Part shown: positions 38,367 to 49,217 of the stretch, in pieces
How positions within the stretch are numbered: the stretch's first letter is position 1
Layout: every line of letters begins with the position of its first letter
Assembly (NCBI RefSeq): GCF_011064615.1
Contig: NZ_JAALJH010000041.1
Location: 1 to 64,000, forward strand
DNA: 64,000 nt
Direction of reading: 5' to 3'
Origin: Aquisphaera insulae
GTDB taxonomy: Bacteria; Planctomycetota; Planctomycetia; Isosphaerales; Isosphaeraceae
Notes under the pieces: generated by a model
The model's database searches: none
What the model was told of the DNA's origin: nothing
The model's input: only the letters and a program-made list of their open reading frames with translations
Made by a program: the position numbers and the translations under genes

Positions 38367-41300
38367 ATGGCGACCGTCGCACCGATCGCGAATCCGATCC
38401 TGAATTCACCCTACAAGGAGCCGACCCGGCATTTCCGGTTCGACGCGAACAACCAGATCACGGACCAGGTTGACCCGGGGCGCCGGGCCAGCAGCTACTT
38501 CCTGCCGGTCCCCACGCCCAAGAAGAAGGGCGCACCGGGGCTCTTCGACGCGGTCGAGGAGACGAAGGCGGAGAGCGGTCACGTCAACCGCATCCGACAG
38601 CTCGTGGGGAACTGGCGGGACCTCGGCCGGCCCGACATCACGCCGACAACCCGCTCGCTCCTGGAGCACTGGCACGCGGAGGACCGGTTCCGCGCCCTCT
38701 TCTTCTGCCAGCTCGAGGCGCTCGAAACCCTCATTTACATCACCGAGGTCGCCAAGCAGACGAAGTACGGCGACGTCTGGATCGAGAAGTACCTCCGCCA
38801 GGCCGCCGAGGAGGCCGGGACGGACCTCCTCCGGATCGCCTGCAAGATGGCCACCGGCAGCGGCAAGACCGTCGTCATGGCGATGCTGATCGCCTGGCAG
38901 GTCCTGAACCGGCGTCGATATCCCCGCGACAGCCGGTTCACCGACGCCTTCCTCGTGGTCGCCCCCGGCATCACCATCCGCGACCGCCTCCGGGTCCTGC
39001 TCCCCTCGGATCCGAACAATTACTATCGCGAGCTCGACATCGTCCCGGCCGAGCACCGCGACGACCTCGGAACCGCCCGGATCGTGATCACCAACTTCCA
39101 CGCGTTCAAGCTCCGCGAGAAGGGAGACGCAGGGGGCCTGACCAAGCGCATCCTCACCGCGGGCAATCCGAGCGCCTTCACCGAGTCGCCCGACGAGATG
39201 GTCCATCGCGTCTGCAACGACCTGGGCCGGCGCACCGGGATCATCGTCCTCAACGACGAGGCGCACCATTGCTACCGCGGCAAGGTCGCCGCGGCGAAGG
39301 AGAAGATGACCCGGGAGGAGGCCAGCGAGGCCAAGGAACGCGCCGAGGAGGCCCGGCTCTGGATCACCGGGCTCGAGGCCGTTCACCGTAAGCTCACCGT
39401 GAAGGCCGCGTATGACCTCTCCGCGACGCCGTTCTACCTGAAGGGCTCGGGCTATCCGGAGGGGACGCTCTTCCCCTGGGTCGTCTCCGATTTCTCCCTG
39501 ATGGACGCCATCGAGTCCGGCATCGTCAAGATCCCCCGGGTGCCGATCGCCGACAACGCGATGACCGGCGACTACCCCAAGTACCGCGACCTCTGGGTCC
39601 ACATCCGCGACGGCCTCAAGGACCTCCGCCGCGGACCGGACGACTCGCGCACGCCGCCGATGCTCCCCGGCCTGCTCGAGGGGGCGCTCAAGAGCCTGTA
39701 CGGCCACTACGCCCGGACGTTCGCGGACTGGGAGGCCGATGAGGAGGCCCGGGCCAACGGCAGCACGCCGCCGGTCTTCATCGTCGTTTGCAACAACACG
39801 AACGTCAGCAAGGCGGTCTTCGATTCCATCGCCGGGTACGAGACCCCGCACGTGCACCCGGACGGCGAGCCGGTGGTGGCCGGGGGGGAGGCCCTGCCTC
39901 TCTTCCGCAACGTCAAGGACGATCGCTGGCGGCACCGGCCCCGGACGATCCTGGTGGACAGCCGCCAGCTCGAATCCGGCCAGGGGCTCTCCGACGAGTT
40001 CAAGCGGTTCGCGAAGCATCAGATCGAGGACTTCAAGGCCGAATACCGCCGCCGGTTCCCGGGCCGCGACGCCGAGGGGCTGACCGACGAGGACCTGATG
40101 CGCGAGGTGCTCAACACCGTCGGCAAGGCCGGCAAGCTCGGCGAGCACGTCCGCTGCGTCGTCTCGGTCTCGATGCTCACCGAGGGCTGGGACTGCAACA
40201 CGGTGACCCACATCCTGGGCGTCCGGGCCTTCGGCACGCGGCTCCTCTGCGAGCAGGTCATGGGCCGCGGCCTGCGGCGGCGGAGCTACGCCGTCGACGA
40301 CGACGGGATGCTGACCCCGGAATACGCCGACATCTTCGGCGTCCCGTTCAGCGGGTTCCCGGTCGCCGGCCTCTCCGAGGAACGGGCCCCCGCCACCTCG
40401 AAGCCCGGCAAGGCCGTTCGCGCCCTCCCCGAACGGCTGGCCGTCGCCCCCTGGCTCGAGATCCGCTTCCCTCGCGTCGTAGGCTATCGGTTCGAACTCC
40501 CCTCCGACCGCCTGGCGGCGAGGTTCGACCCCTCGCACCGCGTGGTGCTGACCACCCAGGACATCCCGACCACGACCCTGAATGCCCCCATCGTCGGCCA
40601 GGACGCCCGCCTGACCCTGGAGGCGGCCCGCGACCTCCGGCCCCAGGCGGTGGCCTTCCACCTGGCCTCGCACCTGCTCCAGCAATACCACACCGCCAGC
40701 CCCTGGCTCTTCCCGCAACTGCTCGGCGTCGCCCGCGACTGGCTGGGCGACCCTGGCGGCGACACCCCGAACGTCGACTACGGCGACGACACCTTCCCCG
40801 GCCTCCTCCTCCTCGGCGAGACGAAGCACGCCGCCTGCGAGAAGATCCATCGCGCCATCCTCGCCGCCTCCGGCGGCGCCCAGAGCGTCCGCGCCGACGT
40901 CCGGTCCGGCGACGTCGGCACCACGGCCGGAATCGCGTTCGACACCGTCAAGACCTGCTGGACGACCGCCCCGGACAAATGCCACGTCAACCTCGTCCCC
41001 CAGGACAGCGACTGGGAGACCATCGTCTGCCAGAAGCTCGAGGAGCTCGACGAGGTCCTCGCCTACGTCAAGAACCAGGGCATCGGCTTCCGGATCCCCT
41101 ACACCCACGAGGGCCGCCCCGGCAGCTACTTCCCCGACCTGATCGTCAAGCTGGACGACGGCCGCGGCCCCGACGACCCCCTGAACCTCGTCCTCGAGGT
41201 CTCCGGTCAGAAGAAGAAGGAAAAGGAGTCCAAGGTCCAGACCGCGCGAACCCTGTGGGTCCCCGCCGTCAACAACCTGGGCACCTTCGGCCGCTGGGCC

Positions 41301-41369
41301 TTCCACGAGATCGACGGGTCCAACCTTCATAAGGCGAAGCAGGAGATACGCCGTCTACTTCATGATTGA
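38367..41369 (+). CDS. BPTD_3080-like restriction endonuclease (SF2 helicase-nuclease, type III Res-like)
   Basis: A 1000-residue protein. Walker A is ATGSGKT (162-168) and motif II is NDEAH (296-300), with later motifs SATPFYL and the long SF2 C-terminal lobe (VSMLTEGWDCNTVTHILGVRAFGTRLLCEQVMGRGLRR), as in type III Res subunits. Near the C-terminus YFPDLIV (D924) and LVLEVSGQKK (E944) form a PD-(D/E)xK-like site, though Ser replaces the usual Lys two residues after Glu. It should translocate on and cut DNA not protected by the cognate methyltransferase encoded two genes downstream. ATG at 38367 has CGGAG eight bases upstream. Confidence 0.85.
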   Translation: MATVAPIANPILNSPYKEPTRHFRFDANNQITDQVDPGRRASSYFLPVPTPKKKGAPGLFDAVEETKAESGHVNRIRQLVGNWRDLGRPDITPTTRSLLEHWHAEDRFRALFFCQLEALETLIYITEVAKQTKYGDVWIEKYLRQAAEEAGTDLLRIACKMATGSGKTVVMAMLIAWQVLNRRRYPRDSRFTDAFLVVAPGITIRDRLRVLLPSDPNNYYRELDIVPAEHRDDLGTARIVITNFHAFKLREKGDAGGLTKRILTAGNPSAFTESPDEMVHRVCNDLGRRTGIIVLNDEAHHCYRGKVAAAKEKMTREEASEAKERAEEARLWITGLEAVHRKLTVKAAYDLSATPFYLKGSGYPEGTLFPWVVSDFSLMDAIESGIVKIPRVPIADNAMTGDYPKYRDLWVHIRDGLKDLRRGPDDSRTPPMLPGLLEGALKSLYGHYARTFADWEADEEARANGSTPPVFIVVCNNTNVSKAVFDSIAGYETPHVHPDGEPVVAGGEALPLFRNVKDDRWRHRPRTILVDSRQLESGQGLSDEFKRFAKHQIEDFKAEYRRRFPGRDAEGLTDEDLMREVLNTVGKAGKLGEHVRCVVSVSMLTEGWDCNTVTHILGVRAFGTRLLCEQVMGRGLRRRSYAVDDDGMLTPEYADIFGVPFSGFPVAGLSEERAPATSKPGKAVRALPERLAVAPWLEIRFPRVVGYRFELPSDRLAARFDPSHRVVLTTQDIPTTTLNAPIVGQDARLTLEAARDLRPQAVAFHLASHLLQQYHTASPWLFPQLLGVARDWLGDPGGDTPNVDYGDDTFPGLLLLGETKHAACEKIHRAILAASGGAQSVRADVRSGDVGTTAGIAFDTVKTCWTTAPDKCHVNLVPQDSDWETIVCQKLEELDEVLAYVKNQGIGFRIPYTHEGRPGSYFPDLIVKLDDGRGPDDPLNLVLEVSGQKKKEKESKVQTARTLWVPAVNNLGTFGRWAFHEIDGSNLHKAKQEIRRLLHD

Positions 41370-41412
41370 GGGCATGATTCCTATTCCTTTGTCCATGCCA
41401 CTAGAATCGCGA

Positions 41413-41439
41413 TTAAAGTTTAGAGCCCTTGACTATAAT
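41413..41439 (+). promoter_or_regulatory. Possible promoter before the Fic gene
   Basis: The 129-base gap between the helicase-nuclease and Fic genes is AT-rich and holds TATAAT at 41434-41439 with TTAAAG 15 bases before it. The spacing is short of the usual 17, so this is only a candidate for separate Fic-methyltransferase expression. Confidence 0.3.
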
Positions 41440-41498
41440 TAGAGGCTGCTGGTTTCAAGTTTGGTATAACTAGCACGAACAACAAAGGGGATAACACC

Positions 41499-42689
41499 TT
41501 GCGTCGGGATGACTTTGCCTCGGATGCACCTGGTGAGCTCATTCCTTCTCTCGCGGGTTATTTGACCTTTGAGCCTCGCCCCTTGCCTCCGCCAGAAGAG
41601 GCCCTCTCGCTTGATTTCCGGTTGGCGAAGGAACTGGAGGACGCCCGAGGAGCAATCGGGGAATTGGCGGGGATTGGGCGGATGCTCCATAATCCCCACC
41701 TGCTGATCCGGCCGTTCGTCCAGCGCGAGGCTGTTTCGTCGAGCCGGATCGAAGGGACGATCACCCGGCTCGATCAGCTTTTCCTTTTCGAAGCTGAGCC
41801 GGACCAGATCACGCACCCGGCCGACGTGGAGGAGGTACGGAACTACGTCCTCGCATCCGAGCACGGTCATGATCTGATCCGACAGGGGAATCCTCTCAGC
41901 CTCCGAGTCATCCGGGAGATTCATGAGATCCTGATGCAAGGAGTCCGCGGAGGCAACAAGCGGCCGGGAGAATTCCGCCCGTGCGACGTGCGGATCGGAC
42001 GCGGCGGAGAGTCGTGGGACGACAGCCGGTTCATCCCTCCATCCCATCTCAGGCTCAATCCCCTGCTCCGGGACCTTGAGCGTTTCCTGAACACACCGAG
42101 CGAGCGGCCGGTCGTCGTTGATCTGGCCCTCGTTCACTACCAGTTCGAGGCGATTCACCCCTTCATGGACGGCAACGGGAGAATCGGTCGATTGCTCCTG
42201 CCCCTGATGCTATGCGAGCGGGGGTATCTCCCTCAGCCGCTGCTCTACCTCTCCGCCTACCTGGAGCAGCACGATGAGGAGTACCGCGACCACCTGCTCG
42301 GCGTCAGCCGGCGAGGAGCCTGGGCGGGTTGGATTCGCTTTCTCGCCCGGGGCGTGACCGAGCAGGCGCGCGACGCGGCAACCCGCGCGGGCAGGCTGCT
42401 GGATCTATGGCGACAGTATCAGAGAATTGTCGGCTCGCTCAGCCGCAGCGCAGCGGCCGTTCGTTTGCTGGATCTCCTCTTCACCCGGCCATTTATCACG
42501 ATCCCGAATGCTGCGAACTTCCTGGAGCTGACCTACCCCGCGGCATTGAACAACGTGGAACGCCTCGTCGAGGCCCAGGTCCTCAAGGAAATGGCCGGGA
42601 CTTCGAACCCGAGGATCTATGTCGCCACCGAGATCCTCCGACTGCTCGATGAGCCGCTCAACCAGAGCGAAACCCAACAAACCCCCTGA
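41499..42689 (+). CDS. Class II Fic family protein
   Basis: A 396-residue Fic protein. The catalytic motif HPFMDGNGRIGR (220-231) is complete, with the His base and Gly/Arg phosphate binders. The auto-inhibitory motif S-x-x-x-E-G is at 81-86 (SSRIEG), N-terminal to the Fic core, which makes it class II. A C-terminal winged-helix-like region (FTRPFITIPNAANFLELTYPAALNNVERLVEAQVLKE) follows. It probably AMPylates a protein once inhibition is relieved. The start is TTG with AAAGGGG upstream. It sits between a nuclease and methyltransferase gene and ends 10 bases before the latter, so it is likely part of the same defence operon. Confidence 0.9.
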   Translation: MRRDDFASDAPGELIPSLAGYLTFEPRPLPPPEEALSLDFRLAKELEDARGAIGELAGIGRMLHNPHLLIRPFVQREAVSSSRIEGTITRLDQLFLFEAEPDQITHPADVEEVRNYVLASEHGHDLIRQGNPLSLRVIREIHEILMQGVRGGNKRPGEFRPCDVRIGRGGESWDDSRFIPPSHLRLNPLLRDLERFLNTPSERPVVVDLALVHYQFEAIHPFMDGNGRIGRLLLPLMLCERGYLPQPLLYLSAYLEQHDEEYRDHLLGVSRRGAWAGWIRFLARGVTEQARDAATRAGRLLDLWRQYQRIVGSLSRSAAAVRLLDLLFTRPFITIPNAANFLELTYPAALNNVERLVEAQVLKEMAGTSNPRIYVATEILRLLDEPLNQSETQQTP

Positions 42690-42699
42690 AGGAACTCCG

Positions 42700-45405
42700 A
42701 TGGCCAGGAAGAAGCCCACCGCGTCGTCCGGCTCCGCGTCGTCATCAGTCCCGGTGGACTCGCTCAAGCATGTGGCGGACCGGCGGACGAACATCCCGAC
42801 GCGGGAGACGGCGGCGTTCGCGGAGGACGACGGGATCGGCAAGGCGATCTACCAGCGGGACCGGTCGCTCGACCCTCAGCTCGTCTGGAAGGGGAAGGAC
42901 GAGCAGGACGCCAAGCCGCTGGAGGTCCCCGCGGTCCCGCTCCACGTCCAGGAGAAGATCCACCCCCAGGCCATCGTCGAGGACCTCAAGCGCCGGGCGT
43001 CGGCCGCGAAGCCCGGCGCGGTCACCCAGCTCGACCTCTTCGCCGACTTCAACGGCCTCGACGACTTCGCGAAGAAGCTGGAGTTCTACCAGCACGACCA
43101 GCACTGGACCAACCGCCTCATCCTGGGCGACAGCCTCCTCGTCATGACCAGCCTCGCCGAGAAGGAACGCCTCCGCGGCCAGGTCCAGTGCATCTACTTC
43201 GACCCCCCCTACGGCATCAAGTTCGGCTCCAACTGGCAGGTCTCCACCCGCAAACGCGACGTCAAGGACGCCAAGGCCGAGGACCTCACCAGGCAGCCCG
43301 AGCAGATCAGGGCGTTCCGGGATACGTGGGAGCTGGGGATTCATAGCTATCTGAGCTATCTGCGAGATCGGTTGACGGTGGCGAGGGAGTTGTTGACGGA
43401 GAGCGGGAGTGTCTTCGTGCAGATTGGGGAGGATAACGTACATCTCATAAGATTAATGATGGACGAGGTGTTCGGCCCTCAGAACTTCGTCGTGACCATT
43501 AAGTACATTAAGACAACAAGCTCTACTGCCTTAGCAATCCCGCCAACCACCGACTACATCGTCTGGTTTTCGAAGGATGTCGAGCAACTTAAGTTTCGTC
43601 AGTTATTCCTTGAGAAGCTTCCGGATGGTGCAGGTGGGAGGTTCTATGATCGAGTTGAGCTAGAAAACGGGAGCAAACGTGTCATGAGTGCTAGCGAGCG
43701 TTCAGGGGAAAAATCGCTGCCGCCTGGTGGAAGGCTGTATCGCTTGAGCGACCTATGCAGTCAGAGTATGGGGCGAGATAAGGGCGAAGGCGCGGCCTGC
43801 TGGTATCCTGTCGAGTATGGCGGCAGAAAATACCTTCCCAATGACAAATTGAGATGGAAAACAAACGAAGCTGGAATGCAACGACTGTTGGACGGAGGGC
43901 GAATCGAAGCCAGATTGAATTCTCTAGCATATGTGCGATATATCGATGATTTTCCGGTGATATATCTCGACGATGTGTGGAACGACACTCGCTGGGGCTA
44001 TGATGCAGGAGACAAAATGTATGTGGTACAAACGCACTCCAAGGTCGCCCAGCGTTGCCTCCTCATGACCACCGACCCCGGCGACCTCGTCCTGGACCCG
44101 ACGTGCGGGAGCGGGACGACGGCGTACGTGGCGGAGCAATGGGGGCGGCGGTGGATCACGATCGACACGTCGCGGGTGGCGCTGGCCCTGGCCCGGACGC
44201 GGCTGATGGCGGCGCGGTTCCCGTATTACCTGCTGGCCGATTCGCCCGAGGGGCGGAAGAAGCAGGCCGAGCTGACGGCGACGCCCATCGAGGCGTCCGC
44301 TCCCGCGGCCGGGCGGGATTTGCACCGAGGGTTCGTCTATCGGACGGTCCCGCACGTCACGCTCAAGAGCATCGCCAACAACCCCGACATCAAGGAGGGG
44401 ATGACCCGCGAGCAGATCGACCAGGCCATCGCCCGCCACGCCGAGACCGAGACCCTTTACGACCAGCCGTATGAGGACAAGGGGATCGTCCGCCTGACCG
44501 GCCCGTTCACGGTGGAGAGCCTCTCGCCGCATCGCAGCCTGCCGCTGCCCACGCCCGACGGCCCGGTCGTCCCGCGCGACCCGGCGAAGGCGGGCAACCC
44601 GGGCTTCTCCCAGATGATCCTGGAGAACCTCCTCAAGGCCGGCGTGAAGGGGACGGACAAATCCCAGCGGATCGAGCTGATTCGCCTCGACCCGTTCCCC
44701 GGCCTCTACGTCCACGCCGAGGGCGAGACCACCAAAGGCAAGATCGTCCGGGTCTGCATCGGCCCCGAGTTCGGCACCATCGGCGACGAGGCCATCCGCA
44801 AGGCCGCCCTCGAATCGATCAAGGGGAGCTCGTGCGACATCCTTTTGATCTGTGCCTTCGCCTTCGAGCCGAGCATCCACGAGCAGACCGCCGACCTGAC
44901 CAGGGAGATCAAGTTCGGCAAGGTCTCGATCCTCCCCGTGCGGATGAACCCGGACCTCGCCATGGGCGACGAGCTCCTCAAGAAGACCGGCGCCGGGAAC
45001 CTGTTCACCATCTTCGGCGAGCCCGACGTGAAGCTATCTCGCCCCGGCGGCAAGGTCGTCGTCACGATCCGCGGCGTGGACGTCTTCGACCCCACCACCG
45101 GCGCCGTCCGGACCGGCGACACCGACGACATCGCCTGCTGGTTCATCGACACCGATTACGACGGCCAGAGCTTCTTCGTCCGCCACGCCTATTTCCTCCA
45201 CGGCGGCAAGGATGCGACGGAGGGCCCGTATGACAAGCTGAAGAAATCGCTCCGCGCCGAGATCGACGAGTCCGAATGGTCGAAGCTCTACCGCGCCGTC
45301 AGCCAGCCCTTCGACCCGCCAGCCTCCGGCAAGATCGCCGTCAAGGTCATCAACCACTTCGGGGACGAGGTGCTGAAGGTGTATGAGGTGGGGGCGGTCA
45401 AGTGA
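42700..45405 (+). CDS. DPPY-type site-specific DNA methyltransferase (type III Mod-like)
   Basis: A 901-residue beta-class amino-methyltransferase. Motif IV is IYFDPPYGIKFGSNW (DPPY at 168-171) and the AdoMet-binding motif DPTCGSGTTAYVAEQWGRRW is at 466 onward, the circular order of beta-class N6-adenine/N4-cytosine enzymes. The target-recognition region should lie between, about residues 245-450. The last 400 residues are not typical of small Mods and contain IRGVDVFDPTTGAVRTGDTDDIACWFIDTDYDG. The start at 42700 has AAGGAA upstream, 10 bases after the Fic stop. It protects host DNA from the helicase-nuclease. Base composition of the centre is unlike the rest. Confidence 0.9.
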   Translation: MARKKPTASSGSASSSVPVDSLKHVADRRTNIPTRETAAFAEDDGIGKAIYQRDRSLDPQLVWKGKDEQDAKPLEVPAVPLHVQEKIHPQAIVEDLKRRASAAKPGAVTQLDLFADFNGLDDFAKKLEFYQHDQHWTNRLILGDSLLVMTSLAEKERLRGQVQCIYFDPPYGIKFGSNWQVSTRKRDVKDAKAEDLTRQPEQIRAFRDTWELGIHSYLSYLRDRLTVARELLTESGSVFVQIGEDNVHLIRLMMDEVFGPQNFVVTIKYIKTTSSTALAIPPTTDYIVWFSKDVEQLKFRQLFLEKLPDGAGGRFYDRVELENGSKRVMSASERSGEKSLPPGGRLYRLSDLCSQSMGRDKGEGAACWYPVEYGGRKYLPNDKLRWKTNEAGMQRLLDGGRIEARLNSLAYVRYIDDFPVIYLDDVWNDTRWGYDAGDKMYVVQTHSKVAQRCLLMTTDPGDLVLDPTCGSGTTAYVAEQWGRRWITIDTSRVALALARTRLMAARFPYYLLADSPEGRKKQAELTATPIEASAPAAGRDLHRGFVYRTVPHVTLKSIANNPDIKEGMTREQIDQAIARHAETETLYDQPYEDKGIVRLTGPFTVESLSPHRSLPLPTPDGPVVPRDPAKAGNPGFSQMILENLLKAGVKGTDKSQRIELIRLDPFPGLYVHAEGETTKGKIVRVCIGPEFGTIGDEAIRKAALESIKGSSCDILLICAFAFEPSIHEQTADLTREIKFGKVSILPVRMNPDLAMGDELLKKTGAGNLFTIFGEPDVKLSRPGGKVVVTIRGVDVFDPTTGAVRTGDTDDIACWFIDTDYDGQSFFVRHAYFLHGGKDATEGPYDKLKKSLRAEIDESEWSKLYRAVSQPFDPPASGKIAVKVINHFGDEVLKVYEVGAVK

Positions 45406-45697
45406 ACGTGTTGCGATCCGTATCATCATCCGGTAGAAGGTAGGGCAAGAACCGAGGCATCATGTCGGATCGCGGAATGGCAGCACGGCGCTAATCCCTT
45501 GCAGGAACCGCCTCTGACCGGCGACCGATCGAGCGTCGGAGGGGCGATCGACCGACGGGACCGGCTTCTGCAGGCATCCTCTCGCGAGCGCGGTTCGACC
45601 TTCCTCGTTCCAGTCAAAGCGCTGATGTTGCCTGCCGGTCACTCGTCGATTGAAATCACCATGATCGTCGCGACATTTCACGCGGGGGAGGGGCACC
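45406..45697. other. Intergenic region, moderate GC
   Basis: Follows the methyltransferase gene. No terminator hairpin or gene was recognised; base composition is lower in GC than the core parts of the window. Confidence 0.35.
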
Positions 45698-46582
45698 ATG
45701 ATGGAGGACTCGGACCGATTCAAGCTCCTCAACGGCCCATACAGCCCGCCGGCATGCCGGGTCGGAGGCAGACTTCATTGTGAGTATCGGGGCCGAGAGG
45801 AGGTCGTGGGGGGAATGACCAACGCACCGATCCAATGGCCCATTCGAAAGGGGCTCGGACGCCATTCCTGCATCCTCTGCGGTGACCTGATCCGGGCCCT
45901 CCGGACCGAATCCGACATCGCAGTTTCCCACCATTGGGGCGTCTCTATCACCACGGTCAATCGCTGGCGTCAGGCCCTGGAGGCCGCAAGGATTCTCGAG
46001 GTGAGCCCGCGACCCTCTGCGGTTCGTCGACCCAGATCCGCGGAGTTCAAGAAGGCGATATCGGAACGGGCGAAACGGATGTGGGAACACCCCGAACAGC
46101 ACGGGCTACCCCCGTGCCACCGCTGGACCGATGAGGAAATCGCCCTGCTGGGTACGGCTCCCGATCCGATCATCGCCAAGCGGCTGGGGATCCCCAGGCA
46201 CAACGTAGAGAGCAAACGGCGTCGGCTCGGGATCCCGGGAATCCTGAATCGTTGGACCGATGAGGAGATCGCCTTGCTGGGGACAGACTCGGATGCGGTC
46301 ATCGCGAGAAGACTGGGCCGTCCGGCGGTTGGCGTTCGAGACAAGAGGGAGAAGCTGGGTATCCCACCCATGATGACTCGGTGGACGAACGGAGAGATTG
46401 TCCTGCTTGGAACGGACACGGATCAGGCCATCGCCGAGAAACTCGGCAAAAGCCGGATGGGGGTGAAATCCAAGAGATTGGCCCTTGGAATTCCCGCCTT
46501 CACCCGTGCGGGAAGCGGTAATCGGCAAGGATTGCACGGGGACCGCGAATCCTCGGCCGACCCAGAAGACATCCATGAGTGA
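45698..46582 (+). CDS. DNA-binding-like protein with three SANT/HTH-like repeats
   Basis: A 294-residue protein. The N-terminal part (about 55-100: GDLIRALRTESDIAVSHHWGVSITTVNRWRQAL) is a helix-turn-helix-like domain seen in planctomycete proteins of unknown role. It is followed by three exact-period repeats of 43 residues, each RWTxxEIxLLGTxxDxxIAxxLGxxxxxVxxKRxxLGIP, starting at 46121, 46250 and 46379. Each resembles a Myb/SANT-like DNA-binding unit. GGAGG lies six bases before the ATG. It is encoded inside the defence island between the methyltransferase and the EVE-HNH pair; a regulatory or mobile-element-control role is possible but unproven. Confidence 0.75.
   Translation: MMEDSDRFKLLNGPYSPPACRVGGRLHCEYRGREEVVGGMTNAPIQWPIRKGLGRHSCILCGDLIRALRTESDIAVSHHWGVSITTVNRWRQALEAARILEVSPRPSAVRRPRSAEFKKAISERAKRMWEHPEQHGLPPCHRWTDEEIALLGTAPDPIIAKRLGIPRHNVESKRRRLGIPGILNRWTDEEIALLGTDSDAVIARRLGRPAVGVRDKREKLGIPPMMTRWTNGEIVLLGTDTDQAIAEKLGKSRMGVKSKRLALGIPAFTRAGSGNRQGLHGDRESSADPEDIHE
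46118..46504. repeat. Three 129-bp tandem repeats in the SANT-like gene
   Basis: Repeat phases begin at 46121, 46250 and 46379 (each at the CGC/CGT/CGG-TGG codons for Arg-Trp), exactly 129 bp apart. DNA identity is moderate, so the duplications are old compared with the 48-bp repeats at 19.1 kb. Confidence 0.8.
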
Positions 46583-46729
46583 ATTCGCGCGAACTCAGAG
46601 CGTCGGAACCAGATGGCCGGGCCATCCCCGGACCAGATGAAGCCGGTCCCGGCATTCTGCCCCGCCGTCAGGTCCGATCTCGACGCGCTTTGGACTGGCC
46701 GGCGATGCCCGACTGCTCGGAAGAGCGCA

Positions 46730-47839
46730 TTAACTTGGTTCAACCAAGAGGGCCAATGCGACCTCCTCATCGATAACGGACCGCATCCGCTTAAGCTTCA
46801 GCTCACGTCGATACATCCTCTCCTCGATCGCCTCCCGGAGAAAGCCTTCCAGCGGTCTTCTCAATGCCTTGCGATCCACGAACAGGCGGTGGATCAGACA
46901 ATTGGTGATGACTGAGAGGACTCGCTTCCGGTCCATGAGGCACCGCAAGCCTCTTCTCTTCTCCTCGACCGCCGCGGCAAGGCTGCTGGTATTCATCACA
47001 TCAAACCGGGGCTCCACGTACCCTGGCGGAGTCGGAATGTCCTTGCTCATGCTCGAGGTACCGTCGAGGACACTCGCGACGAATTCTTGCGGGAAGCCGA
47101 TCTCCGTCTTCCGGATCCACTTCTGGACCTTCTCATCGGTCCAGCGGCCAGGGACAAGAGTCCTGTCCTGTGCCAACCGGCGGATCGCCCGGATCAGCAC
47201 CTCGTTCACCACCAGATAATACCGGTGTTGTTGCTCGAACCAATTCGCTTCCGTCAACAGGTCTTCCCTGTTGTCGCTCTTCCAGATGCGCTCGACGTTC
47301 GCTCTCACGTCGGGCCGTTTGGGCGTCCAGATGACGTGCGTGACCTTCGCCGTCATGGAGTCGTCCCTGCGCTCGACATGAAACCGGATCCGCGGCAGAT
47401 CTTGACCAAGGATGCGCTCAGCGAATCGCGGAGCCTCGAAGCGAGTTATCTCCTGGATGATGTTCCTCGCCTCGAACAGCGAGTCATAAGAGATGCCGCT
47501 TAGCCAGCCGGAAAAGAGGTCGCTCGAACTCGCCACTTCCGGGTCGACATGGCTGGCGGCGAGCTGCTCCATCTTCTCCGCGGGATTTGCGACGTAACGC
47601 TTTTCGATCTGATCGCGAACGATCGCGATGAACTTATCGAACAACGGATGATCGTCGGGAGCGACGACCAGCGCGTCGATGTCGTTGGGGGACTCCTTGC
47701 CTCGGAAGAAGCTGCCGTAGCCGATGACCTGAGAAACCCGGACCGGAAGATCGATCGAACCGCATCGCTCGCAAAACATGACGAGCCGGCCGAGGAGGAC
47801 GGACTGACGCTTTGAAATATGCGAACTCTTATCGATCAT
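46730..47839 (-). CDS. Nucleotidyltransferase-fold protein
   Basis: A 369-residue protein. Residues 38-60 (QVIGYGSFFRGKESPNDIDALVV) carry the pol-beta-type signature G-S-x(9)-D-x-D, with G42-S43 and D53/D55. The remaining 300 residues are helical and unlike a named family to my eye; VTHVIWTPKRPDVRANVERIW and RYYLVVNEVLIRAIRRLA stand out. The start at 47839 has GGAG seven bases upstream. The gene follows the EVE-HNH endonuclease gene by 59 bases on the same strand, so the two probably form an operon. Nucleotidyltransferases of this type modify tRNA or proteins in several toxin and abortive-infection systems; that role is inferred here. Confidence 0.75.
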   Translation of the reverse strand: MIDKSSHISKRQSVLLGRLVMFCERCGSIDLPVRVSQVIGYGSFFRGKESPNDIDALVVAPDDHPLFDKFIAIVRDQIEKRYVANPAEKMEQLAASHVDPEVASSSDLFSGWLSGISYDSLFEARNIIQEITRFEAPRFAERILGQDLPRIRFHVERRDDSMTAKVTHVIWTPKRPDVRANVERIWKSDNREDLLTEANWFEQQHRYYLVVNEVLIRAIRRLAQDRTLVPGRWTDEKVQKWIRKTEIGFPQEFVASVLDGTSSMSKDIPTPPGYVEPRFDVMNTSSLAAAVEEKRRGLRCLMDRKRVLSVITNCLIHRLFVDRKALRRPLEGFLREAIEERMYRRELKLKRMRSVIDEEVALALLVEPS

Positions 47840-47898
47840 ATCACCGCTCCCGCGGGAAAACCGAGCAAACTGCATGCAAACAAATGAACACGACTGTC

Positions 47899-48756
47899 TC
47901 ACGATCGCTGTTTGTCCGAGTTCGATGACGCCTTCCCCGCAGCCCGGAGGAATCGGCGCACATCCTCGATTGAGTACGGGGGATCGCTCCGAAGATGGAT
48001 CACGGCATGGCAGTTGGGACAGATCGGCCGCAAGTCCTTGATCGGATCCACCTCATAGCCCTCACGGATCTTGCTAATGAGCTTGAGATGATGGACGTGG
48101 ATTAGCCCTTCGGCGACCTCGCCGTACTTCTCTCCGAAGTCGAGCTCGCAGGCAGCGCAGACGGCTCCGTGGTGCTCAATGCACCTTCGTCTTGCCTCCG
48201 GATTGCGCTCGTAGGCATTCACCGTGATGAGGGAAACGGCCCCCTCGTAGAGAGACTGCCTTCCTGAAACTTCTTCGGGCAGAAGAGGAGGACCGTGTCG
48301 ATACGGTTCGAGCCAGGCTGGGATACGTTCCGTGACGTGCGAGAGGATCTCGACGAGTCCCCGCAGGTCGAAGGGGAAAAAGTACCCCTGACAGACGGAA
48401 CCTCGCTTATTGATGGGGTAGTACTTTACTCGGAAGGCTATCAGGGCCGCACCGAATGTCTTCTGAAGCACCGGATTCTCAAGATCGAAATACTCGGTGC
48501 GAAACCGCCACCCTGCCCCGTAGTCTTCGCCTTCAAGACGCGGCAATCGATCGTGATAAATGCCATCTTCCAGAGCTCGGCTGAAGGCGACTACGTACGG
48601 CTTCCTGTAGTGGACGACCAGATCACCTGCCTTTGACTTTCCGACGGTCTTCCTAAACGTAGCTCCTCCGGCCGATGTCCGATCGGAACTGCAAACGACC
48701 TCGCTGGGTCGCTCCGCTTCCCACTGTCTCGATTGGTTGCACCACCAGACTTGCAT
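47899..48756 (-). CDS. EVE-like domain / HNH endonuclease fusion
   Basis: A 285-residue protein. It opens like EVE/PUA-like restriction proteins: MQVWWCNQSRQWEAER, then KAGDLVVHYRKPYVVAFSRAL, a fold that can read modified bases. The C-terminal HNH domain has two CxxC zinc knuckles (C200/C203 and C246/C249) around HVHHL (220-224) and CPNCHAVIHLR, complete for catalysis. Such EVE-HNH fusions are candidates for modification-dependent restriction, cutting DNA with methylated or hypermodified cytosine. GGAGG precedes the ATG. First gene of the pair with the nucleotidyltransferase. Base composition is lower in GC than core genes (32 of 60 at 48421-48480), which suits transfer. Confidence 0.85.
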   Translation of the reverse strand: MQVWWCNQSRQWEAERPSEVVCSSDRTSAGGATFRKTVGKSKAGDLVVHYRKPYVVAFSRALEDGIYHDRLPRLEGEDYGAGWRFRTEYFDLENPVLQKTFGAALIAFRVKYYPINKRGSVCQGYFFPFDLRGLVEILSHVTERIPAWLEPYRHGPPLLPEEVSGRQSLYEGAVSLITVNAYERNPEARRRCIEHHGAVCAACELDFGEKYGEVAEGLIHVHHLKLISKIREGYEVDPIKDLRPICPNCHAVIHLRSDPPYSIEDVRRFLRAAGKASSNSDKQRS

Positions 48757-49217
48757 GGCATCCTCCGAGGATTGGACCTACTCTCCGATTCTACCAAATC
48801 ATCGCATTTGAGCCAAATCGGTCCTCTTTAGCGGAGAGATTCCTCGGCCGCCACATTTACCCCCGAGGACACCAGAGTTTCCGATGGGTTCGCCTCGGCC
48901 GGTGTGCCGGGCGACCGGGAACCGACAAACCCCGTGGGAGCCGGCTCCGTTTGGCTACCGGTATGCGGTGGTGACCGCCGGATTGCCCGGTCATTCGATC
49001 ATGGGAGTTCGCCGATGGGCGACGGCCTTCTCACCAGCCAGGCCTCACTCCGTCGCCGGCCGGAGCCGGCTCCCACAAATCGGACGCGGGCCACGGCTCA
49101 CCCCGTCGCCTCCTGCAAAATCCAATCCCATCCGTCCCGAGGTCTCCTCCGCATTCTCTTCTCGGTGCCCTCCGCGCCTCTGTGGTTGGTCCACCCCCTC
49201 CTCCCGGGCCGCCGTCG
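48757..49217. repeat. Non-coding stretch with long inverted REP-like repeats
   Basis: No gene is seen in these 461 bases. GTGGGAGCCGGCTCCG at 48934-48949 is repeated as its exact reverse complement at 49061-49076, and each arm is itself largely palindromic. This is the BIME-like arrangement also known from GTGGGAGC-type REPs in Pseudomonas. The second copy of the dispersed CACGGAGG-type repeat follows at 49153-49189. The stretch marks the right edge of the defence island. Confidence 0.65.
49153..49189. repeat. Dispersed CACGGAGG-type repeat, copy 2
   Basis: Diverged second copy of the element at 30828-30863: on the minus strand CCAACCACAGAGGC, then GCGGAGGGCACCGAGAAG. It lies 29 bases past the 3' end of the alpha/beta hydrolase gene, the same placement as copy 1. 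Confidence 0.6.

Follow-up and report, generated by a model that had tools for sequence, protein, structure and literature searches.

A Fic gene between RES and MOD of a BPTD_3080-type restriction-modification locus: an apparently exchangeable cargo slot and a candidate second-line toxin

Genes and features of the locus

The window (the whole 64-kb stretch of DNA analysed here) comes from a source genome of 10.04 Mb in 309 contigs. It carries a restriction helicase gene (RES), a Fic gene (fic) and a DNA methyltransferase gene (MOD), which follow each other on one strand (Table 1).

Table 1. Features of the locus and half-sites in related loci. Positions refer to the window, except for the half-sites, which are given in RES-forward coordinates of the locus named.
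Feature	Position	Strand	Description
RES	38367-41369	+	1000 aa; BPTD_3080-family SF2 helicase with C-terminal PD-(D/E)xK-like motif
RES codons 944-956	41196-41234	+	Nuclease motif dividing RES into S/T and K groups
RES-fic gap	41370-41498	+	GC 0.426 (low); candidate region for regulation of the cargo; TTG start preceded by AAAGGGG
fic	41499-42689	+	396 aa from a TTG start; Pfam matches Fic_N and Fic; class II SoFic-type AMPylase with C-terminal domain
fic-mod junction	42690-42699	+	10 bases; fic stop overlapped by the putative ribosome-binding site of MOD (TGAAGG)
MOD	42700-45405	+	ATG start, 901 aa; Type III-like DNA methyltransferase; FDPPYG, later CGSGT
HTH-like gene	45698-46582	+	
Nucleotidyltransferase-like gene	46730-47902	-	390-aa protein
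HNH-like gene	47899-48756	-	
Low-GC stretch	41001-49000		
Half-sites, L160	4498-4555		
Half-sites, L226	5048-5106		
Half-sites, L238	6030-6088		
Half-sites, L230	4140-4167		

The RES protein scored 1101.7 bits against NF046055 (restr_BPTD_3080; cut-off 800) over residues 8-990, which places it in this family. Its motor motifs (Walker A ATGSGKT and DEAHH) are accompanied by a Pfam ResIII match, and the PDB folds nearest to its AlphaFold model (mean pLDDT 78) were the RadD and EcoR124I HsdR motors. Among the matches listed, the named contigs nearest to the window RES were planctomycetes, and a search of phage records for RES relatives gave no match at E 1e-5. Near the C-terminus, P923-D924 and E944 were invariant in the alignment, whereas the lysine of the ExK motif, present in another part of the BPTD_3080 family, is Ser946 in the window (E944-V-S946-G). 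Serine or threonine stood at this position in 26/34 aligned rows (the window and 25 others, E-V-S/T-G) and lysine in the other type of motif (E-I/V-K-G) in 8/34; E944, G947 and K956 were invariant across all 34. The S/T variant marks a whole RES group, comprising 34 of the 77 RES-MOD loci of our first round (see below).

The Fic protein contains the active-site motif HPFMDGNGRIGR, which conforms to HPFx[D/E]GNGRxxR, and, 139 residues ahead of it in the N-terminal part, the inhibitory motif SSRIEG, which conforms to [S/T]xxxE[G/N]. Residues 24-389, including the C-terminal domain, aligned with SoFic PDB chains over nearly the full length (E 8.8e-34 for 9tch), with SSRIEG opposite SSEIEN of SoFic. 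The match to PADLOC SoFic was strong (E 4.4e-108). The score against the NCBIfam SoFic equivalog model was 171.6 bits with a cut-off of 550, and the protein is therefore, judged from its sequence, a homologue of SoFic and not an equivalog. Its Pfam, NCBIfam and PADLOC matches were all Fic-type families or PADLOC candidates, none of them named PrrC. The third-position GC content of fic (0.743) differs from that of RES (0.934). No match to a sigma-70-like promoter was found in the RES-fic gap, and no AS1-like small antitoxin gene lies downstream of fic, where only 10 bases precede MOD.

The MOD protein matched Pfam N6_N4_Mtase and PADLOC MTase_III (938 bits), and its matches in the PDB (6k0w, a Mod, and 4zcf, the Mod of EcoP15I) relate it to EcoP15I-type Mod proteins; we take it to be of the beta class from the order of its two motifs. 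In Type III restriction-modification (RM) systems, Mod is needed for cleavage, which involves two inverted unmethylated sites. The longest MOD reading frame begins at 42619, within fic; the ATG at 42700 was preferred because a spacing of exactly 10 bases between the fic stop and MOD recurs in three related loci (L160, L022 and L226).

An earlier note on this DNA, made from the letters alone, had described three co-directional genes, a class II Fic protein with both motifs complete and a DPPY methyltransferase starting 10 bases past the Fic stop. All of this was borne out: the three frames are open, and FDPPYG is in place. Its term helicase-nuclease is clear for the SF2 helicase and less certain for the nuclease, given the Ser946 replacement.

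The RES-MOD junction in related loci

RES loci were collected from overlapping sets of 59 relatives, 392 genomes of the phylum and 397 genomes of the class, together with 80 loci from a contig collection, the best 80 of at least 567 confirmed candidates, namely those nearest the window RES. In the phylum set, 58 of 61 RES places were used, the partial matches G080, G132 and G102 being left out, and duplicate loci were removed by an exact 120-base mid-gene match. The first round comprised 141 distinct loci: 77 with RES then MOD on one strand, 27 with MOD then RES, and 37 without a visible MOD, many of them truncated by contig ends. A second round added 25 RES-MOD loci, giving 102. The cargo counts below cover the RES-MOD order, not the MOD-RES order.

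The distance between RES and MOD was below 250 bp in 35 of the 102 loci, 250-344 bp in two and 345-4220 bp in 65. Where the slot was occupied, its longest open reading frame ran in the direction of the operon in 43 of 49 cases (first 77 loci; p 6e-8). A family was assigned to the cargo in 47/102 loci, and a further 18 occupied slots held genes without a family. The families form a hand-made list from domain searches and BLAST clusters; the DinD, TcmP and DUF5131 calls were partly made through BLAST clustering with a scanned member, L226 through BLAST to the window Fic, L118 on DUF5615 alone, and L238 by eye through comparison with L228. On this list, the slot held Fic (9), DinD/Bro-N (9), GmrSD (7), TcmP and/or DUF5131 (5), SLFN_AlbA/HATPase_c_4 (4), DUF433/DUF5615 (3) and PDDEXK nucleases (2), and in one locus each HNH, DUF3800, OLD-like AAA, HicA, NOV_C, PADLOC PDC-S11, an Eco57I-like methylase and Peptidase_M78. 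Many of these are defence or toxin families. The RES-MOD junction thus looks like an exchangeable cargo slot with several defence genes among its occupants.

Occupied and empty slots were scattered over the wider RES tree nearly as in shuffles (20 changes, with a shuffled mean of 22.2, or 22, with a mean of 24.7). This tree holds 74 proteins with SH-aLRT support only; the broken L061, L084 and L093 were left out, and the 25 second-round loci are absent from it.

Among plasmids, 14 loci were inspected of 55 records with a match, with an incomplete gene table. A methyltransferase gene stood right after RES in seven of these loci, one or two genes lay between in four (one of them a UPF0175-DUF3368 pair), a DUF3883 gene followed by an unannotated stretch was seen in one, and two had no visible MOD. 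Fic was in the slot of none of the 14 plasmid loci; one of them, from Rhodococcus ruber, had a Fic gene upstream of RES instead.

The 27 MOD-before-RES loci (for example, L120, L135 and L162) had gaps of 3 to 4125 bp, and a slot may exist there too. This group is mostly more distant from the window (25/27 at 31-37% RES identity). In L117, the slot is filled by a 1037-aa N6 methylase/Eco57I-like protein, that is, an RM-type enzyme within another RM system.

Fic in the slot

Fic occupied the slot in nine of the 102 loci: the window, L160 (also numbered L007), L022, L226, L028, L073, L077, L088 and L234. Compared with the flanks, Fic was about 31-fold denser in the slot (88.8 kb of slot contained nine Fic genes, 907.7 kb of flank three; binomial p 6e-8). 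Without the window's clade, the counts were 5 and 3, an 18-fold enrichment (p 2e-4), which is the fairer figure because the window was chosen for its Fic. Flank Fic genes were counted by motif in open reading frames of at least 150 aa, and the comparison concerned Fic alone, against flank length. All three flank Fic genes lay upstream of RES.

On the RES tree, the seven Fic loci then known require six changes, at least five of them forced by the starred branches. By this count, Fic entered the slot several times. The slot Fic proteins form at least three sequence groups: those of the window's clade, L073 together with L088, and L028, a Fic outside the SoFic type. L077 and L234 sit on long branches with unsure placement, and the Fic tree excludes L028 and L187. 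A single old insertion inherited everywhere is not supported by the RES and Fic trees, and Fic as a fixed component of the system was rejected on its presence in 9/102 RES-MOD loci only. The earlier note had looked to a conserved nuclease-Fic-methyltransferase order, with chance insertion as the opposite outcome. The order is not fixed; however, the density in the slot and the repeated entry fit poorly with chance insertion alone.

We also considered that Fic replaces a dead RES nuclease. This was ruled out because the S/T motif marks a whole group, 30 of its 34 loci lack Fic, and Fic accompanies both variants (S/T in the window, L007, L022 and L028; K in L073, L077 and L088).

Fic proteins of the window type were also found elsewhere, in 27 of 99 genomes of relatives (a set that overlaps those named above) and at 31 places, two of which are slot Fic genes; this type of Fic therefore does not need RES-MOD. 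Within about 1.5 kb of flank, none of the Fic loci L171-L198 had RES, and L176 alone had a MOD-like stretch (27% identity).

Swapping, loss and damage in the window's clade

In the window's clade, RES proteins are 73-83% identical to the window RES. Four of its loci (the window, L160, L022 and L226) have an intact Fic gene, all open and with both motifs, and the proteins are 51-80% identical. The other slots hold a 95-aa open reading frame (L021) or a DUF433-DUF5615 pair (L228), or are nearly empty (L239 and L256), while L230 keeps the 3' end of fic beside MOD (75.9% identity to L160 fic over 141 aligned columns, E 7e-24). Two further clade loci, L225 and L232, end before MOD.

The RES tree groups L226 with L022 (100/99), whereas the Fic tree groups it with L160 (99/98). 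Identities agree with this conflict: L226 is closer to L160 than to L022 in Fic (79.7% against 64.3%) and closer to L022 in RES (86.8% against 81.9%). Between L160 and L226, MOD is 67.5% identical, compared with the 79.7% of Fic. It seems, therefore, that the Fic cargo has passed from one RM locus to another within this clade. All four Fic loci have the 10-base spacing to MOD, and in them the putative ribosome-binding site of MOD touches the fic stop. A MOD leader similar to that of the Fic loci is also present in L239 and L256, which lack an intact Fic; the cargo thus seems to attach at the MOD leader without supplying it.

Three of these loci may reflect decay of the system and not a clean swap, because RES is damaged too: it lacks the first third in L230, lies in two frames in L239, and is partial with a stop in L256. 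In L238 (RES 65%, with stops), what looks by eye like a DUF433-DUF5615 pair is followed by a relic of the MOD 5' end and then by MOD. The relic, with 50 identical positions in 59 ungapped columns, is likely a recombination scar.

Proposed function of the Fic cargo

We consider it rather probable that the locus is a BPTD_3080-type (Type III-like) RM system with an exchangeable slot in which the Fic cargo serves as a second-line abortive-infection toxin. The comparison of loci supplies the slot, its variety, the repeated entry and swapping of Fic, the co-direction and, within the clade, the constant 10-base spacing to MOD. In the mechanism that we propose, RES and MOD would carry out restriction. 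Fic would AMPylate a host protein and stop growth once a phage defeats or bypasses restriction, and would normally be kept silent by the SSRIEG helix, the TTG start and the coupling to MOD. The least certain step is that RES or MOD itself might silence Fic, by analogy with EcoprrI and PrrC. Against this reading stand the 93/102 RES-MOD loci and all 14 inspected plasmid loci with no Fic in the slot, the window-type Fic genes located elsewhere in related genomes, and the scatter of occupied slots over the RES tree, which would suit neutral gene traffic as well.

The back-up toxin suggested by the earlier note is partly supported in this way, and it fits much of the company that Fic keeps in the slot. 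The inhibitory motif, which the note had offered as a switch, is real, but it is common in the Fic family of the window.

GmrSD is a Type IV enzyme against modified phage DNA, and its presence in seven slots would also suit a back-up role. Core defence loci of the BREX type harbour auxiliary or back-up effectors, for example GmrSD and HEPN/MNT modules (PMC12839542, available text), a placement like that of GmrSD in the RES-MOD slots; however, BREX is not a Type III-like RM system, and the term Fido is absent from the available text of that paper.

The closest protein precedent is SoFic, for which phage protection through toxic AMPylation is described in the available text of PMC12249575. The window Fic resembles SoFic and EcSofic in near full-length sequence and in its active and inhibitory motifs. 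EcSofic is a standalone gene with a 47-residue antitoxin, AS1, just downstream (PMC12249575, same text), whereas the window Fic is embedded between RES and MOD without room for an AS1-like antitoxin. Since no such gene fits in 10 bases, control must differ from that of EcSofic, or the toxin may be mild.

The closest precedent in layout is PrrC, a latent toxin in the EcoprrI Type IC locus that fires upon inhibition of restriction (PMC12707154, PMC3506569, available text). Both loci have a toxin gene embedded among RM genes; however, PrrC is an anticodon nuclease, EcoprrI is of Type I, and silencing by the RM complex has been reported for PrrC. Makarova et al. proposed that immunity components restrain the toxins of immunity loci, which would explain why antitoxins are missing there (PMC3506569, available text). 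The window layout would suit a toxin held in this way because no antitoxin gene is seen, the inhibitory helix is present and fic is coupled to MOD.

Doc domains are relatives of Fic. In the available text of PMC3506569, they are mentioned in connection with ter-gene operons that also contain RM-like nucleases and helicases. The hypothesis in that text, of immunity loci carrying interchangeable toxins held by immunity components, resembles the arrangement described here. It differs in that the RM-linked domains named there are HEPN, Sir2, ParB and REase, the word Fic is absent from the main text, and no BPTD_3080 slot appears in the available part. A Fic is listed between the specificity and M subunits of a Histophilus somni RM locus in the gene list of PMC3339403, but this is a Type I system and a single locus. 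Toxins within RM loci are thus already published. The literature searched, in its available text, contained no description of a Fic, or of a variable cargo slot, at the RES-MOD junction of the BPTD_3080 family, and no paper naming BPTD_3080 was found in it.

Alternative explanations

It is unlikely, though a serious possibility, that Fic is a neutral or selfish passenger, and that the junction tolerates insertion so that genes transit through it without working with the RM system. This would agree with the very varied cargo, the nearly random scatter of occupied slots over the RES tree (22 changes against 24.7), the composition of fic unlike that of RES, the scar-like relic in L238 and the damaged RES of L230, L239 and L256, the last of which makes the passenger reading slightly more probable and the toxin reading slightly less so. 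However, mere transit accounts poorly for cargo that is co-directional in 43/49 slots, for a Fic density 18- to 31-fold above the flanks, and for four related Fic genes that remain open with both motifs despite identities of only 51-80%.

The second-line toxin reading could be carried further. The BPTD_3080 RM system might be a docking platform for swappable effectors that read the state of the RM system, and MOD, through coupled translation, might in this lineage act as the Fic antitoxin, so that loss or block of MOD would lead to AMPylation and cell arrest. We regard this extension as doubtful. If the second-line toxin reading itself is right, one junction in a widespread RM family would be a natural catalogue of back-up defences. 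Any slot gene, including those for uncharacterised proteins, would then be a candidate for a second-line effector, and toxin silencing by RM components could be studied in the common setting of the RES/MOD frame. Such silencing by immunity components has been in print as a hypothesis since 2012, with PrrC as the worked example (PMC3506569, available text).

Fic might instead act mainly as a transcriptional regulator, setting the fic-mod level through binding of its C-terminal domain to repeats that precede fic, in line with the label of SoFic as a transcriptional regulator in PDB entry 3eqx. Three half-sites TT(T/C)NGGTAAA (orientations -,+,+; steps of 17 and 30-31 bases) are common to L160 and L226 right before fic, with no further match elsewhere in either locus. 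This sharing tracks the Fic tree and not the RES tree, and L230, with its Fic relic, retains two half-sites. However, the window and L022 have no half-site match, L238 has half-sites before MOD without fic, and inverted repeats were only weakly commoner upstream of Fic genes than in controls (8/27 against 15/120, Fisher p 0.03). We consider this role improbable. Inverted repeats had been taken up as a general mark of Fic autoregulation after a first scan (9/25, at most 1/40 shuffles), and with the controls included this idea was retained as a lead only. No inverted repeat was found upstream of the window fic. L184 and L185 each have, upstream of fic, a perfect inverted repeat of 10 bases; a 35-base spacer separates the arms, which are identical in both loci.

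Direct regulation of restriction by AMPylation of RES or MOD, the other role raised by the earlier note, finds no support and is very improbable: adjacency and the 10-base coupling to MOD are all that speaks for it, while 93/102 loci have no Fic in the slot, unrelated enzymes occupy the same slot, and at least three Fic sequence groups are hard to reconcile with one conserved substrate.

Neighbouring genes

GC content was 0.555-0.674 in all eight 1-kb blocks of the low-GC stretch, compared with about 0.70 around it, which is consistent with an acquired island. No tRNA genes were found within the window.

The HTH-like gene encodes a possibly DNA-binding protein in which an HTH-like part and three RWT(D/N)(E/G)EI-LLGT repeats were recognised by eye; its HTH_23 and IS630 matches in Pfam and NCBIfam were sub-threshold only. 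On the opposite strand, the nucleotidyltransferase-like gene is named for a GS...DID stretch noticed by eye, and its protein gave no family match in Pfam, NCBIfam or PADLOC. It overlaps the HNH-like gene by 4 bases. The protein of the latter had no Pfam match at 0.001 and, by eye, closely resembles the C-terminal portion of the HNH protein from the L025 slot.
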